NCBI GenBank assembly: GCA_003225005.1
Contig: QIAN01000021.1
Location: 1 to 64,000 of the forward strand
From: Acidobacteriota bacterium
GTDB taxonomy: Bacteria; Acidobacteriota; Terriglobia; Terriglobales; Acidobacteriaceae
DNA: 64,000 nucleotides
Reading direction: 5' to 3'
Positions within the stretch are counted from its first letter, which is position 1, and the number at the start of each line of letters is the position of its first letter. The notes below the pieces were generated by a model. That model searched no databases. It had not been told where the DNA came from and was given only the letters and a program-made list of their open reading frames with translations. The position numbers were made by a program, and so were the translations under genes. This document shows, one piece after another, positions 1,760 through 16,580 of this stretch.

Positions 1760-1924
1760 TAACGCGGCGACGGCGGCGAACTGAAAGTCCGAACCCACCC
1801 GACGACCAGCCTCAAGCCGCCCGTCAGTCGGCTTGCCTCACCTGGCTGGTTTCTAATGTTTCGTCACCGACTTCTGCCTTTTCCATTTTATGTTCTTGCA
1901 CCTTTTTCACAGTCTCAGGGTAAT

Positions 1925-3697
1925 ATGTACGACAAGCATCTGGGTTTGTTACCCCCCATGGCCGCTATGACCCCCGACTTGCAGTCTCCACTCCTGAACC
2001 GGCGTCGTCGCGTGCGACACCGAGTGCATACACCCGCGTACGCTAGTTTCACCGGCATGTCGAAGGGGTTGGCACTTGAGCTGAACGAGATCGTAGACAT
2101 TAGCGAAGACGGTGCGTCAGTGCAGTGCCCATCGGCGTTGGAGCTTAACCGAGAGTATGCTCTGAGCCTTGACCTGGCGGAGGCCAACGTACAAATCTAT
2201 ACAACCGGTCAGGTGATATGGTCGGAAGCCTCCGGACGCGCGGGTCTGCGTTTTGTCCATCTGTCGGAGTCGTCCTTACTCCAATTGCGGGATTGGCTCT
2301 TCATCAATGCCATGGCCTCCGTGGTGAACGCTGAAATGATCGCTGCACCAGTGCTGGCTGTTCCCGGACCATCTGAAACAGCCCAATCCGCGCCGCGGCC
2401 GGATCACAGCAACATGCTGGCGGCCCTGTCGGAAGTTGAACGTGAAGTCGAGACTTTCGGAACTGATCTCGATGCATCCCTTCGACTGATCGCTATCCGG
2501 TCTCAGGCTCTGGTGCGGGCGACCGGCGCCGCAATTGCCTTGGCGGCAACGGATCCCGGAATCATGGTCTGCCGGGCAAGCGCGGGGCCGGATGCTCCAC
2601 CCGTGGGCGCCGAACTACAGGTGGGATCGGGCTTCTCAGGCGAGTGCGTTCGCACGGGAAAAACCCTGCATTGCGATGACACCGAGACCGACACTCGCGT
2701 CAACAAGCAGAGCTGCCGGGCTCTCGGTATCCGCTCCATGATTGCGGTTCCAGTGCGCGCAAGCGACGAAGTCCTTGGAATCATCGAAGTGTTTTCTTCC
2801 CAGCCCGGTGCGCTTCACGAAACTGACATTTCCGTCTTGCAGCGGCTGGCGGAAATCACCCTCGCCGCCATCAACATTCAAGCACCCGAACAGAACTCCG
2901 CACCGGTGATTGCCTCTCCTGCCCCAACTTTCTCCTCTGCAGGAAGTGTTCTCTTGGCTTCCCACGATGAGCAGAAGGAAAACCAGGACGAGAAAGAGCG
3001 GTTGAGTGCCGAGGAAAGAACCTTCGGCGGCGTCCGTCTACCGCGTGCCCATCTCATATTACTTCTCATCGCCGCGGCCACGATTGCGCTAGCGCTCGGT
3101 TTTATCCTCGCTCCGTGGATTCAGGAGAAGATGCAGGGGCATGCTCCGAGTAGGGATCAAACCGTTCTTGCATCCTCTCGACCGTTGGCACCGGCGCAGC
3201 CCAACTCTGCGCACGCCTTGCAACCGAAATCGGCCAGTGATGCTCCCACGCTTGAACAACTCCGGCAATTGGCAGATCAGGGAGATCCCTCGGTCGAGTA
3301 TGCTCTGGGTGCACGTTACGCTTTCGGCGACGGGGTCGGGCAAAATTACTCCGAAGCTGTGCGCTGGTTTTTCCGCGCTGCTGAGCAAGGCCACGTGATT
3401 TCTCAAGCCACCCTAGGGGCTTACTACATGGCCGGACGCGGCGTGTCGGTAGATCTTTCCAAGGCTTATTTCTGGGCTTATGTGGCGCGCGCGGGCGGGG
3501 ACGCGGGAAGTAAACTACGAGTGGAAATGCTGTCCTCGCAGATTCCTAGCTCCGAGATCCTGGTCATCGAGCAACGAGCCAACGAATGGTTGCAGCAGCA
3601 CCAACCTGCTCGAAAGCCTCGAGCTCGCCGGAAGACTTCAGGCCCAAGACTTGGGCCTGAAGGGCCACCCTCGGATGCCCCAACGGCGCTAAAATAA
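1925..3697 (+). CDS. PilZ-GAF-TM-Sel1 repeat signalling protein
   Basis: About 590 residues. ATG 1925 is chosen because AGGG sits 5 bases before it; an earlier ATG at 1856 lacks a ribosome site. The N-terminal PilZ domain has both c-di-GMP motifs: R29-x3-R33 and DISEDG near residues 58-63. A GAF domain follows (about 165-320) with the same Cys-x13-Cys as the gene upstream. A single membrane helix lies near 375-398 (LILLLIAAATIALALGFIL), followed by a Pro/Ala linker and two Sel1/TPR-like repeats (about 448-538; ALGARYAFGDGVGQNYSEAV type). Inference: cytoplasmic PilZ and GAF inputs, periplasmic Sel1 protein-interaction output. The C-terminal tail is basic. Domain calls are confident; ligand and partner are unknown. 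Confidence 0.8.
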   Translation: MYDKHLGLLPPMAAMTPDLQSPLLNRRRRVRHRVHTPAYASFTGMSKGLALELNEIVDISEDGASVQCPSALELNREYALSLDLAEANVQIYTTGQVIWSEASGRAGLRFVHLSESSLLQLRDWLFINAMASVVNAEMIAAPVLAVPGPSETAQSAPRPDHSNMLAALSEVEREVETFGTDLDASLRLIAIRSQALVRATGAAIALAATDPGIMVCRASAGPDAPPVGAELQVGSGFSGECVRTGKTLHCDDTETDTRVNKQSCRALGIRSMIAVPVRASDEVLGIIEVFSSQPGALHETDISVLQRLAEITLAAINIQAPEQNSAPVIASPAPTFSSAGSVLLASHDEQKENQDEKERLSAEERTFGGVRLPRAHLILLLIAAATIALALGFILAPWIQEKMQGHAPSRDQTVLASSRPLAPAQPNSAHALQPKSASDAPTLEQLRQLADQGDPSVEYALGARYAFGDGVGQNYSEAVRWFFRAAEQGHVISQATLGAYYMAGRGVSVDLSKAYFWAYVARAGGDAGSKLRVEMLSSQIPSSEILVIEQRANEWLQQHQPARKPRARRKTSGPRLGPEGPPSDAPTALK

Positions 3698-9552: not shown

Positions 9553-9774
9553 ATGAATGTCACCCTCTCGATCGATGAGCAACTCGTAGCTCGCGCGCGA
9601 AAGAAAGCCGAGGCCCTCGGCAAGAGTCTCAATCAATTGATCCGCGATTACTTGCAAACGGTAGCCGGCGGAGACGATCCCGAGCGCAGCATTAAGGAGT
9701 TTAAGCAGCTCTCGGGTCAAGGCAACTCGCGCGGCTGGCGGTTCAATCGAGACGAGATTCATGAGCGCTCGTAG
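9553..9774 (+). CDS. VapB-type antitoxin
   Basis: 73 residues from ATG 9553. An in-frame GTG at 9532 lies inside the promoter and cannot be the start. The N-terminal MNVTLSIDEQL strand followed by ARARKKAEALGKSLNQLIRD is a ribbon-helix-helix DNA-binding fold; the C-terminal part (KEFKQLSGQGNSRGWRFNRDEIH) is the usual toxin-wrapping tail. No Shine-Dalgarno precedes the ATG, in line with a leaderless mRNA. It overlaps the PIN toxin by 14 bases, which implies translational coupling. Function: neutralises the toxin and represses the operon. Confidence 0.85.
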   Translation: MNVTLSIDEQLVARARKKAEALGKSLNQLIRDYLQTVAGGDDPERSIKEFKQLSGQGNSRGWRFNRDEIHERS

Positions 9775-10174
9775 CTTCTTCGACACCAACGTCTTGGTCT
9801 ACGCAGATGACAAGGCTGCGCCGGCAAAGCAGAAGCGTGCCGTCGATCTGGTTGCGGAGTACAGGCGTGCGAGGACGGGAGTCGTGTCCCTGCAGGTGCT
9901 GCAGGAGTATTTTGTCACCGTCACGCGGAAGCTAGGAGTAGATCCCAGTACTGCTCGTCGCAAGGTCGAACTGCTGGCGGAGTTCGACGTGGTCGTTCCC
10001 GAGGTCCCGGACATTCTCGCCGCGATCGACTGGCACCGTCTTCACGGATTTTCCTTCTGGGACGCTACGGTTCTGCGGGCAGCCAAACAGGCTGGATGCG
10101 GGGTACTTTTCTCAGAAGATATGCAAGCAGCCCGGGAGATGGATGGGGTTCGAATTTTGAATCCGTTCCGGTAG
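9761..10174 (+). CDS. VapC-type PIN domain ribonuclease toxin
   Basis: 137 residues. PIN domain acidic residues are all visible: D8 (FFDTNVL), E49 (VLQEYF), D101 (FWDATVL) and E119/D120 (FSEDMQ); together they bind the Mg2+/Mn2+ needed for RNA cleavage. The length is usual for VapC. VapC toxins typically cut tRNA or rRNA at defined sites; the target here cannot be predicted. The gene overlaps the antitoxin by 14 bases. It appears intact, in contrast to the HigB toxin 5 kb away. Confidence 0.9.
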   Translation: MSARSFFDTNVLVYADDKAAPAKQKRAVDLVAEYRRARTGVVSLQVLQEYFVTVTRKLGVDPSTARRKVELLAEFDVVVPEVPDILAAIDWHRLHGFSFWDATVLRAAKQAGCGVLFSEDMQAAREMDGVRILNPFR

Positions 10175-10197: not shown

Positions 10198-12756
10198 CTA
10201 TTTGTCCACGCTCGCCACCTTCACCCCGTGCGAGCTAACCGCGTAGCGCGCAATACCCCTGTACAGCGCCTCCGCGATCTGCTCGCGGTAGCCGTCGTTG
10301 CGCAGCCTCTGTTCATCGGTGGGACTGCTGACGAACGAAATTTCCGCCAGGATCGCTGGCATTGAGGTCTCGGTGAGCACCACAAACCCTGCTTCCTTTA
10401 CTCCCCGGTCGCGAATGCCAGGATTCTGACCTGCCAGCGTTCCGTACAGCGAGCGCTGCACACTCGCCGCAAGCCGCCGCGACTGCTCAATCTTCTCTTT
10501 CAATTCCACGCTGGAGAGCTTGATTGCGGGCATACTGTTGCTCGCCCCACCGTTCTCCCGTACTTCTACCTCCCGTGCGCCCGGCGCTGTAAGAAAGTTC
10601 GTGTAGTAGGTTTCAACGCCGCGCGCCGACCCCAAATCGCTGTAATTGGCATGGATGGAAACAAACAGATCGGCCTGAGCCTGGTTCGCCATCGCGGCCC
10701 GCTCACCCAGCGGGACATAGTTATCATCCTGGCGCGTAAAGATCACTTCGCTGCCGAGGCGGCTCTGCAGAAGTTTCCCCAGCCGCTGGGCGATCTCGAG
10801 CACCAGATCTTTTTCCAGCAGCCCCCGACGACCCACTGTACCCAGGTCCCAGCCGCCGTGTCCCGCGTCCACGGCAATGCGCATTTTGGGCACCCGCGCT
10901 CGCAGCTGTAAATCCTCACGAGTCGGCGGCGCTACAACAATCGCCAGTTTGTCCACATCCGTTTCTCTAGAGTCGCGAAACAGATCGACCCTGGCCCGGT
11001 TGTCGGCTCCGATCTTGCGCACCTGCACCACCAGGCGGTAAGGATTCGGCTCCAGGCTTACCGAGAAATTCGACCCGCCCTTGGTTTCGAGCACAATGCG
11101 CGTCGTATTCGGCTCCGGTTGCGCCATGCGAATGCGGGACAACAACCCGTCGCCCACGTCAATGGTCTTGCCCTCTAATTCGGGCGCCAGTTCTGTATCG
11201 TGCAGGTCGAAGTAAATGCGGTCAGGGCCAGTCAAGCGGTGCGCCTCGTACTGCACTTGGTCTTGGAGATCCAGTACCACGGTGGTCGAGTCGGCCGAAG
11301 ACCAGTGCCTGATGCCAGTTACACGGGGTAGTTTCGCGGCGCCATGCTGATTCGCAGCGGACGTATCCGCGGTCGTAGTCTTAGTGTTGTCGCCGGAAGC
11401 TGCTCCAGAAGAGATGCCATTGGAAGTAATTCCGCCTGTAACCGCGGGCATGGAAATCCCAGGGCTCGGCTCTCGAGTGTCGCGGGATGAACCGCGAGTG
11501 GTTCCGCCCGTGACTTTGTTCGGTGCGGGCACGACCAGAGCCTTGATCTGATCATTCTTCAGCTTCCACCACAGGCCTCCAGCCAGCATCGAGGCAATGA
11601 CCACCAGCACAAGAACCAGCACAACGCCGGGGTGGTGGCTGGCGACCGTCGCTTCCGCTACGGCGGGAGAGGCTTGCTCTGCTTTATCGTCTTTGCCGGA
11701 CATCTCCACTCGCGCCGGAGCTGAATCCAGCAGCGCCGGAGCTGAATCCGCGGTTGAGGTGGAAGAGGATGATGTAGCTGCCCGACTGCCCGCATCGGGA
11801 GACGCTGAATCCGAAAGTGGCAGCAGGAGCCTATTGCCCTCTACCCCACTGCCCGAGGAGACACCGATGCCTCCGGCATCAACCGACACATCGACCGAGA
11901 TGGCCCCGATTGCAGCGGAAGAGTCACCAGTTTTTTCGGTAATCTCTGCCGTCGAGGCTGTTTGCCCAGGCGTCCCGAGCCTGGTTGCCGCCACCTGCGC
12001 GAATTCCGCGAAACGATCCTCATCCTCAGGCTTCAGCGCTCCAAGAATGAGCTCGGCGAGCAGTTCCAAGCTGCGGACATCGCTATCATTAAAGCTAAAG
12101 ATCTGCGCGGAGAACGCTTCCACCAGCCCGATTACGCGTCGCCGGCCGCAGAGCGGCACTGCCACCATGGAACGCGCTCCCAGCTGCCGGCACGCGTGCA
12201 GATTCACACGTGGATCAATCTCCGTATCGTCACAGCGCACGATCTGCGCGGTGCGAAAGCACGCGCCAGAGAAAGCTGAGTCCCGGTCCAGACGCGCACC
12301 CACACTTGGCTTGATGATGCCTGCCGAAGCCCGTAAAACGATTTCATCATTCTCGGCAAGCGCGATCGCCAGTCCGTCGGCGCCGGTGATCGCGACTGCC
12401 CGCTCCGCCACGAGTTGCAGTACGTCGTCGAGAACGAATTGTTCTCCTGCTTCGAATTCTGCTGTCGAGGAAATTGTGTCAAAGCCAGCTTGCCGTCGAG
12501 CCAGAGCTCGCCGCCACCGAACCTGTTCATGGAGTGCGGAAAAAGCCAGCAAGGCTTGCAAAGCATCGCGACCGGAGGGCCGCGAACCGGTTAAGTCAGC
12601 GTCGATGGCGTGTCCGGTCCAGGACGGCGTGTCCCCGACAGAGCCGGAGGACGCACTCATGCCCGTAAACCTCGCGTCGGGCACGATTGTCGCTTTGGTG
12701 GGAGTTGTTGCCATCGCCGTGCCCGTCTCAACACTTGATGCTCCAAGTGTGATCAT
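10198..12756 (-). CDS. Membrane-anchored GAF-AMIN-N-acetylmuramoyl-L-alanine amidase
   Basis: 852 residues with an unusual architecture. A GAF domain occupies about residues 100-250 (GADGLAIALAENDEIVLRAS; Cys-x13-Cys in C-DDTEIDPRVNLHA-C). After a low-complexity linker comes one membrane helix near 377-400 (VVLVLVLVVIASMLAGGLWW). A second Ser/Thr/Gly-rich linker leads to an AMIN domain (about 477-580) and an Amidase_3 domain (about 624-845). The amidase keeps the zinc and catalytic residues: His in DAGHGG, Glu in LLEKDL, His in SIHAN and Glu in LAEISF. Amidase_3 enzymes cut the bond between MurNAc and L-Ala in peptidoglycan, and AMIN directs them to the envelope. The topology implies a cytoplasmic GAF sensor and a periplasmic amidase. 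It converges with vapBC. A second possible start is at 12714. Confidence 0.88.
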   Translation of the reverse strand: MITLGASSVETGTAMATTPTKATIVPDARFTGMSASSGSVGDTPSWTGHAIDADLTGSRPSGRDALQALLAFSALHEQVRWRRALARRQAGFDTISSTAEFEAGEQFVLDDVLQLVAERAVAITGADGLAIALAENDEIVLRASAGIIKPSVGARLDRDSAFSGACFRTAQIVRCDDTEIDPRVNLHACRQLGARSMVAVPLCGRRRVIGLVEAFSAQIFSFNDSDVRSLELLAELILGALKPEDEDRFAEFAQVAATRLGTPGQTASTAEITEKTGDSSAAIGAISVDVSVDAGGIGVSSGSGVEGNRLLLPLSDSASPDAGSRAATSSSSTSTADSAPALLDSAPARVEMSGKDDKAEQASPAVAEATVASHHPGVVLVLVLVVIASMLAGGLWWKLKNDQIKALVVPAPNKVTGGTTRGSSRDTREPSPGISMPAVTGGITSNGISSGAASGDNTKTTTADTSAANQHGAAKLPRVTGIRHWSSADSTTVVLDLQDQVQYEAHRLTGPDRIYFDLHDTELAPELEGKTIDVGDGLLSRIRMAQPEPNTTRIVLETKGGSNFSVSLEPNPYRLVVQVRKIGADNRARVDLFRDSRETDVDKLAIVVAPPTREDLQLRARVPKMRIAVDAGHGGWDLGTVGRRGLLEKDLVLEIAQRLGKLLQSRLGSEVIFTRQDDNYVPLGERAAMANQAQADLFVSIHANYSDLGSARGVETYYTNFLTAPGAREVEVRENGGASNSMPAIKLSSVELKEKIEQSRRLAASVQRSLYGTLAGQNPGIRDRGVKEAGFVVLTETSMPAILAEISFVSSPTDEQRLRNDGYREQIAEALYRGIARYAVSSHGVKVASVDK

Positions 12757-14042: not shown

Positions 14043-14912
14043 GTGGCGGTGAGTATGGAAGCAGTACTTTTTGCCGCGCGGAAAGCACGAGTGCACTACC
14101 GGCATGGTCTACGCACGTTGACCTACGTCACCATCGACCAGGTAAATGGCGGTGTGGTACGCAACCTGAGTGACAAAGGAGTGGCTATCCAAGCGGTCGC
14201 TCCCCTGCAGCCACAGCAAACCGTCCGCCTGCGCTTCGAATTACGACATCCCAATGTAGGTGTCGATGCCCACGGCGAAGTGACCTGGGCCACCTCGTCC
14301 GGACAATGCGGCGTCCGCTTTGTCGATCTTTCGCCGCGTGCGCGTGGCCAGATCAACCAGTGGATTTTTGGAAGCCTGCTCGATTTCCTTCCCCAGGATG
14401 CAGGCGGTACAGGTTCGATCCTCGCCCCGTCGCCCGTTTCGGATGGCCTGACAGAAAGGGATGGATTGATCGTATCCGCATTGCCGCGGCCCGTCATCCA
14501 ACTGGGGTCAAAGGCGGATGCTACATCCGAGCGGAAATTGGAACACGTTCGAATACCAACGGCTGAGCGCCCCGTGATTTTCGATCCGGAAAGCAGCCGG
14601 GATCGATCAGAGCAATCTCAGGATTGGTTTTCACAGCCACTCTCAGGACGCACGCTTGCATTGCTGGTGGACTCGTTGGTTGTGATCGCTGGCCTACTTT
14701 TGTTTTCTTTGGTCTTCCTCGCCACCGCTCGTGAACTGCCGCCTTGGTCAGTGACGATCGGCAGTCTCGTCCTAGCCGGAGTCTTTGTCACGACTGCGTA
14801 TTGGACGTTGTTATCGCTATTCGGAGAGTCCAGCTTAGGCGAGCGTGTGGCACGTCTGGCCACCCGCGATCTCAATGAGCGAACAGAGGGAGCAGGACCC
14901 CGCTTTCGCTAG
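14043..14912 (+). CDS. PilZ domain protein with C-terminal two-helix membrane module
   Basis: 289 residues from GTG 14043 (an ATG at 14055 is an alternative). The PilZ domain lies at about residues 15-115 and keeps both c-di-GMP motifs, RVHYR and NLSDKG, followed by the WATSSGQCGVRFVDLS strand typical of the family. After a roughly 80-residue linker come two membrane helices (about 205-228 and 237-262) and a GESSLGERVARLATRDL tail. This C-terminal part resembles the end of RDD membrane domains (helix, then G-x-T/S-LGxR), but similarity is weak. It is probably a membrane-tethered c-di-GMP receptor. Confidence 0.75.
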   Translation: MAVSMEAVLFAARKARVHYRHGLRTLTYVTIDQVNGGVVRNLSDKGVAIQAVAPLQPQQTVRLRFELRHPNVGVDAHGEVTWATSSGQCGVRFVDLSPRARGQINQWIFGSLLDFLPQDAGGTGSILAPSPVSDGLTERDGLIVSALPRPVIQLGSKADATSERKLEHVRIPTAERPVIFDPESSRDRSEQSQDWFSQPLSGRTLALLVDSLVVIAGLLLFSLVFLATARELPPWSVTIGSLVLAGVFVTTAYWTLLSLFGESSLGERVARLATRDLNERTEGAGPRFR

Positions 14913-15902: not shown

Positions 15903-16580
15903 CTAGTTTGCGAAGTACTGCTGGGCCAGCCACAGTTGGAGAACGCGTTGCGAGCGTGGCGCGACCTTCAGGAATCGAATCCCGAGGTTTCCCCGGCTAT
16001 CCCTCCACGCTACCTGCGCCTGAGCCTTCATCGCGTGCTTCGTGCCCGGGAGTTCAAAACAGACTTGCAGAGGTTTGTTGGTTTCGAAGAGTTCGTCGGA
16101 GTGAACTTGCAGCCCGCCCTGGCTTAGGTTGATGAGTTGCGCCTCCACCCGCTTGCGGGGATTGCAGCTCAGTGCTACCGGCACTTCGAGGCCCGCGCGA
16201 TGGTAGCGCAAGCGTCCGTCAAGAATCATGTTGCGCGCTGCGGAGAGCGTGTGTACTGCCTGTTCTACCGAAATGGGTTTGTCGAAGGCGAAGAGTGCTC
16301 CCGTCGCTTCCAGATCCTTCTTGCGATGCCTGCTGCCCATGATGACCAGGGGCGCGGCGTTCGGATGCCGATGCTCCCGTTGCAGTTCCCGCAAAAACTG
16401 TGCGCTTCCGTCAAGGTCGCAATCTACGATCAGAGCGTCAATCTTGCTTTTATTCAGCCGCGCCAGCGCCCGTTCCGGCACGTTTTCAACAGCAACATCC
16501 ATCTGCAGGCTACCGAGAATGCATTCCAGGACGCTAACTTCCTGCCAGTCGCGCGAAACCACCATCGAAGAAAGTGTCAT
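15903..16580 (-). CDS. Receiver-like plus PilZ domain protein
   Basis: 225 residues. The N-terminal half (about 1-115) resembles a response-regulator receiver fold: a central strand DALIVDCDLDG carrying the likely Asp, a loop LVIMGSR, and FDKPIS with the conserved Lys-Pro. The N-terminal acidic pair is missing, so phosphorylation is doubtful. The C-terminal PilZ domain has NLSQGG, but its arginine motif is spaced R-x4-R (RLRYHR) rather than R-x3-R, so c-di-GMP binding may be weak or lost. Single-domain PilZ-REC proteins act by contacting partner proteins. No partner is obvious nearby. Confidence 0.75.
   Translation of the reverse strand: MTLSSMVVSRDWQEVSVLECILGSLQMDVAVENVPERALARLNKSKIDALIVDCDLDGSAQFLRELQREHRHPNAAPLVIMGSRHRKKDLEATGALFAFDKPISVEQAVHTLSAARNMILDGRLRYHRAGLEVPVALSCNPRKRVEAQLINLSQGGLQVHSDELFETNKPLQVCFELPGTKHAMKAQAQVAWRDSRGNLGIRFLKVAPRSQRVLQLWLAQQYFAN

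Follow-up and report, generated by a model that had tools for sequence, protein, structure and literature searches.

The GAF-amidase gene and its surroundings

The window, by which we mean the whole 64,000-nucleotide stretch of acidobacterial DNA analysed here, carries on its reverse strand an open reading frame (12756-10198) that specifies 852 amino acids when read from its first ATG. The methionine at residue 15 of this frame (M15) aligns with methionine in 22 of 22 sequences and corresponds, in close orthologues, to the first ATG or one soon after it. For these reasons the true start is more likely to be M15, which would give a gene spanning 12714-10198 and a protein of 838 amino acids. Comparison with Pfam revealed, from the N terminus onward, a GAF domain at residues 109-240 (positions 12037-12432; GAF_2, E 5.5e-14, and GAF, E 1.9e-11), an AMIN domain at residues 482-575 (11032-11313; E 2.2e-14), and an Amidase_3 catalytic domain at residues 627-836 (10249-10878; E 1.7e-50), with the matches of all three domains exceeding the curated cut-offs. 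Between the GAF and AMIN domains lies the sole hydrophobic segment of the protein, a single predicted membrane helix at residues 377-395 (11572-11628; mean Kyte-Doolittle value 2.75) that is followed by a W-W pair. This helix is flanked by two variable, low-complexity linkers, one reaching it from the GAF domain (residues 243-372; 11641-12030) and the other leading from it to AMIN (residues 403-478; 11323-11550). A hydrophobicity scan of the protein revealed no signal-like segment at its N terminus. In two alignments, of 22 and of 41 sequences and each with the window protein among them, every sequence has the zinc-binding and catalytic residues H633, E648, H702 and E805. Thus, the original prediction of one protein carrying GAF, one membrane helix, AMIN and a complete Amidase_3 domain with intact catalytic residues was correct, whereas the length of 852 residues that it assigned holds for the frame read from the first ATG and is probably to be replaced by the shorter form beginning at M15.

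The surroundings of this gene were compared among 22 named loci that carry it. A gene for a PilZ-RDD membrane protein (14043-14912, forward strand), transcribed away from the amidase gene, is a neighbour at 17 of the 22, and a gene for a receiver-like/PilZ protein (15903-16580, reverse strand) is a neighbour at 19. On the other side, an S9 peptidase gene, a radical-SAM gene and a gene for a PilZ-GAF-TM-Sel1 protein recur in several loci whose contigs reach that far. The PilZ-GAF-TM-Sel1 gene of the window (1856-3697, forward strand) encodes a sister protein bearing a GAF domain of the same subfamily, and in loci L023, L031, L036 and L037 a close relative flanks the GAF-amidase gene on that side too. 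A PIN-domain gene (9761-10174, forward strand) adjoins the amidase gene and is also found beside it in L031 and L043. RxxxR is a motif of PilZ domains; by our own reading, it is kept in 12 of 18 PilZ-RDD sequences, with [DN]xSxxG kept in fewer, and the receiver-like/PilZ protein is without RxxxR. A connection to c-di-GMP through these PilZ neighbours was considered and is not claimed, as the neighbourhood recurs but the PilZ motifs are only partly kept.

Distribution of the architecture and of its GAF subfamily

The source genome contains four Amidase_3 genes. Besides the one in the window, there are a paralogue on contig C391, an AMIN-Amidase_3 gene on contig C12, and a distant gene that also falls outside the window, at C186:70396. 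The product of the C12 gene has a signal-like start and is termed here the housekeeping paralogue. In the C391 paralogue (L050, 2789-5926), one in-frame TAG separates the GAF part from the helix-AMIN-amidase part, and approximately 250 additional residues follow the amidase domain; it is possible that this gene represents a pseudogene, a true split, or an assembly error.

A scan of genome contigs from 84,980 species, which detects close relatives only, yielded 27 loci, every one of them with an acidobacterial name. In 21 of these, GAF, helix, AMIN and amidase reside in a single frame (that of L042 runs off its contig), and in L038 the gene is in pieces; the rest are housekeeping-type proteins (L044, L046 and L047) and other GAF proteins (L048 and L049). 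An order-wide search found some match in 323 of 397 genomes, many of these matches being to the amidase domain alone. Among the same-genus genomes listed, the source genome included, 30 of 34 have a GAF segment and an amidase segment sharing a frame, as read by hand from the table, and in three of the remaining four the match sits at a contig end. Forty regions picked from the order-wide matches comprise 30 with the full architecture (some duplicating loci counted above), eight of the housekeeping type, and two encoding GAF, helix and AMIN without an amidase. Pooling these sets gave 61 distinct full-architecture frames, the window's own included, from 21 or more of the 80 sampled genera, with distinctness judged on the last 300 residues. 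The GAF-TM-AMIN-Amidase_3 architecture is thus conserved across these Acidobacteriota. A literature search conducted by title, and largely among papers outside subscription journals, found no description of such a protein.

A phylum-wide search with a GAF profile, in which eight candidates per genome were scored, matched 16 of 396 genomes at E 1e-25 or better. Among 30 loci drawn from it, those with an amidase in the GAF frame come from genomes of the source organism's own taxonomic family; L143 and L148 are long frames in genomes of other families that were partly covered and may include an amidase. One genome, G022, encodes two GAF-AMIN proteins without an amidase, one of which has no flagged helix. 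GAF-AMIN proteins that stop after AMIN are found in L132, L134, L154 and L159, with a membrane helix flagged in all of these except L154.

Within the source genome there are 18 GAF matches, 14 of them at E 3e-16 or better. Two of the proteins, L053 on contig C322 and L059 on contig C179, are GAF-TM-TonB_C proteins in which the GAF domain is N-terminal to a TonB-like C-terminal domain; these two and the sister protein at 1856-3697 each combine a GAF domain of this subfamily with a membrane helix and a further domain. L054 combines GAF with Sel1 and has no flagged helix. Because the same subfamily ends variously in TonB_C, in Sel1, or in AMIN without an amidase, these sequences support its use as a putative module. 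L052 and L060 carry the same GAF subfamily together with a late membrane helix, and L060 has a zinc-ribbon match that falls below the Pfam cut-off.

A degenerate regulatory segment in the amidase domain

In AmiA, Glu167 of a blocking helix sits on the zinc, and an adjacent interaction helix serves as the binding site for EnvC (PMC10268282). The site of the blocking helix in AmiA and in the housekeeping paralogue corresponds in the window protein to a degenerate segment at about residues 719-757 (10486-10602, reverse strand). An alignment made with phmmer pairs the R-E-N stretch of the housekeeping protein with that of AmiA, its Glu falling at 167 when counted from His133. We aligned 74 amidase domains, 12 of the housekeeping type and 62 of the GAF type (the 61 distinct frames plus the C391 paralogue), and found the Glu of the blocking helix in all 12 housekeeping domains versus 13 of 62 GAF-type domains. 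Among the housekeeping domains the segment is 40 residues long throughout, with an identity of 0.75 (0.77 for the rest of the domain), whereas among the GAF-type domains its length varies from 14 to 58 residues and its identity is 0.25 (0.70 for the rest of the domain). The window protein and several of its relatives keep the letters R-E-N. An AF2 model of the AMIN-amidase portion of the window protein (mean pLDDT 80) shows this segment as coil as far as residue 276; pLDDT falls below 50 at residues 252-269 (model numbering), and the R-E-N letters lie within coil of this low confidence.

As a family, the GAF-type amidases do not possess the combination of a blocking helix bearing a zinc-binding Glu and a hydrophobic interaction helix. 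Since only 13 of 62 GAF-type domains have the Glu and their segment is degenerate, the window-type amidase seems, at the level of sequence, to have left LytM-type autoinhibition. The R-E-N remnants alone suggest that the helix was lost rather than gained, with the GAF-type segment having decayed from an autoinhibited ancestor; in a midpoint-rooted tree the housekeeping proteins form one clade (support 0.88), and the GAF-type proteins are not separated as a clade. The contrast between a housekeeping paralogue that keeps the blocking-helix Glu and a GAF-type segment that appears degenerate is first seen here.

The degeneracy of the blocking element makes it likely that GAF-type amidases are controlled in some way other than the autoinhibition of AmiA/B/C. 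This does not equate to freedom from partners, since CwlD has no blocking helix and yet needs GerS, according to a report in which the autoinhibitory loop is called unique to AmiA/B/C (PMC8496864). One could also propose that the degenerate segment still inhibits sufficiently to require release by M23/LytM partners, with GAF providing a second layer of control. The R-E-N letters kept by the window protein and its relatives would suit such an arrangement, as would the presence of three M23 proteins in the source genome (none of the three is clearly EnvC-like by eye), but a segment so poorly conserved and so variable in length across the family makes it very improbable.

The window protein shares AMIN, Amidase_3, the His/Glu/His zinc ligands and the catalytic Glu with the EnvC/NlpD-activated division amidases AmiB and AmiC, and AmiC (4bin) is among its matches. 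Unlike these enzymes, it has an N-terminal GAF domain and a membrane helix, its blocking segment is degenerate, and it is without a signal-peptide-like start. Export as a signal-peptide precursor, a trait of AmiA/B/C, was accordingly not found among the GAF-type proteins: no hydrophobic stretch precedes the GAF domain in any of 59 GAF-type frames. A basic, hydrophobic, signal-peptide-like start was recognized by eye in 12 of 12 housekeeping proteins.

The GAF domain, the membrane helix and a proposed tethered amidase

Among 22 proteins, the median pairwise identity is 0.74 for GAF, 0.76 for AMIN, 0.67 for the amidase domain and 0.42 for the helix region, and it falls to 0.29 and 0.22 in the two linkers, whose gap fractions are 0.51 and 0.32. 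By this measure the GAF part is under constraint, being as conserved as the enzyme while the linkers drift. Within the GAF core, all 61 distinct frames have C175, D177, D181 and R183, 58 have C166 (the other three have Ser), and 49 have a third cysteine, C189. The positions of C166 and C175 are both kept in some other GAF proteins of the source genome and lost in others.

An AF2 model of the GAF core is confident (mean pLDDT 82), and the solved folds nearest to it include 2qyb (Z 19.1, 2.2 A, 142 residues aligned) and 4mmn (Z 19.1, 2.1 A, 136 residues aligned), which are tied with other matches within Z 1 and represent a match of fold only, with no ligand assignment. The window GAF domain thus shares its fold with the GAF domain of a Geobacter membrane protein (2qyb), with type II fRMsr (4mmn), and with PDE and HD-GYP GAF domains, but identity to these is 17-18% and no ligand signature was identified in the window domain. 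Further matches, to cyanobacteriochromes and miRFPs, are likewise of fold; a bilin-binding GAF domain was considered on this account and is not proposed. For the free methionine-R-sulfoxide reductase TafRMsr, the roles of cysteines, with a Cys84/Cys60 pair, are described in PMC6211008. The spacing of the window GAF cysteines is suggestive and may reflect a pair of this kind, but the third cysteine is absent in 12 of 61 frames.

Over the 61 frames, the hydrophobic core of the membrane helix has a median value of 2.67 and a minimum of 1.53, the latter belonging to L107, the helix of which lies below the 1.7 threshold. The W-W pair directly follows the helix in 50 of 61 frames and is invariant in the first 22 aligned, and the helix region is ungapped. 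The GAF-to-helix linker has a median length of 96 residues (range 25-182) and the helix-to-AMIN linker one of 72 (range 42-100), with fractions of disorder-type residues of 0.77 and 0.82, respectively, versus 0.66 in GAF. We infer that the GAF domain resides in the cytosol and that AMIN and the amidase lie outside, because the substrate of the latter domains is found only outside and because the paralogue looks exported. The positive-inside rule was considered as support for this orientation and rejected, as the flanking charges run the other way: net charge within 15 residues of the helix averages -0.10 towards GAF and +1.85 towards the amidase, and among the 61 proteins the GAF flank has fewer K+R residues than the other flank in 52% and more in 20%.

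The position of the helix between two independent halves raises the alternative that it acts as an internal signal sequence, with the amidase released by processing and the GAF part left behind or discarded. The stop between GAF and helix in the C391 paralogue is in keeping with halves that may exist apart, although it is a single instance, from a draft genome. The strong hydrophobic core of the helix, followed by W-W and basic residues, is more anchor-like, and we consider a processed pro-enzyme unlikely.

The original prediction proposed inside-out signalling of wall cleavage, which in its most direct form would have ligand binding by GAF act along the membrane helix to alter the active site of the amidase. 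The domain order, the ungapped and fairly conserved helix region, and the W-W pair behind it are consistent with such an allosteric switch. However, linkers of such variable length could hardly carry a rigid conformational signal, and their long, low-complexity character makes it improbable that GAF pushes rigidly on the active site. Inside-out signalling therefore gains from the conserved architecture, the constrained GAF domain and the degenerate blocking element, and is weakened in so far as it implies a conformational signal across the membrane.

We favour instead, with a probability of about 0.5, a tethered amidase for which a cytosolic GAF domain sets assembly or placement, without LytM control. 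An N-acetylmuramoyl-L-alanine amidase would be tethered in the inner membrane, with its GAF half remaining in the cytosol and one helix crossing the membrane, and a flexible leash of approximately 70 residues would allow AMIN and Amidase_3 to reach the wall, with AMIN contributing wall or septum binding. The catalytic domain, being without a blocking helix of the AmiA/B/C type, would be competent without LytM activation, and the cytosolic GAF domain would limit amidase action by where, and in what assembly, it holds the enzyme. This hold is perhaps ligand- or redox-dependent through one invariant and one near-invariant cysteine. Control by clustering, docking or placement would be more natural in such a protein than a rigid push.

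GAF domains can also serve as plain dimerisation units, and the GAF domain here might accordingly be a structural element for dimerisation or docking that senses nothing, leaving a constitutively competent amidase set by AMIN targeting and expression. Long disorder-type linkers, a degenerate blocking segment, and a GAF fold with generic matches and no identified ligand would all be expected of such a protein. The fixation of four residues in 61 of 61 frames and of a third cysteine in 49 exceeds, however, what a dimer surface should require, and the identity of the GAF domain equals that of the enzyme; we therefore regard this explanation as possible but rather doubtful.

The tethered amidase with GAF-dependent placement could be one instance of a wider scheme, which we offer tentatively. 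In Terriglobales-type Acidobacteriota, one GAF subfamily might constitute an interchangeable cytosolic input that is joined through a single helix to varied periplasmic outputs (amidase, AMIN alone, TonB_C or Sel1), and in the amidase branch redox or ligand sensing around the invariant and near-invariant cysteines might have replaced LytM-type release as the switch for cleavage.

LytH of Staphylococcus aureus has its own membrane anchor and, to our knowledge, contains neither GAF nor AMIN. The window protein resembles LytH in that its Amidase_3 would be joined to the membrane through the predicted helix, and 7tj4 is among its matches, but it adds a cytosolic-type domain in the same chain; LytH needs the transmembrane protein ActH (PMC8496864). 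In the FtsEX-EnvC-AmiA/B system, a cytosolic event controls a periplasmic amidase (PMC10268282). Cytosolic-to-periplasmic control of this kind is a putative role of the window protein as well, which unlike that system of four proteins and ATP is one chain with a GAF domain.

Inside-to-wall timing of hydrolases is known mainly from relays of several proteins, FtsEX-EnvC among them. Here one chain combines a sensor-type domain with an amidase apparently devoid of the autoinhibitory helix, and it is accompanied by a housekeeping paralogue that keeps this helix. The two provide a natural comparison for substitutes for LytM control, and the division and envelope biology of the phylum concerned has been little studied. 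If control by the predicted cytosolic sensor-type domain is true, then the cell interior may direct the cutting of the wall in a group of soil Acidobacteriota.
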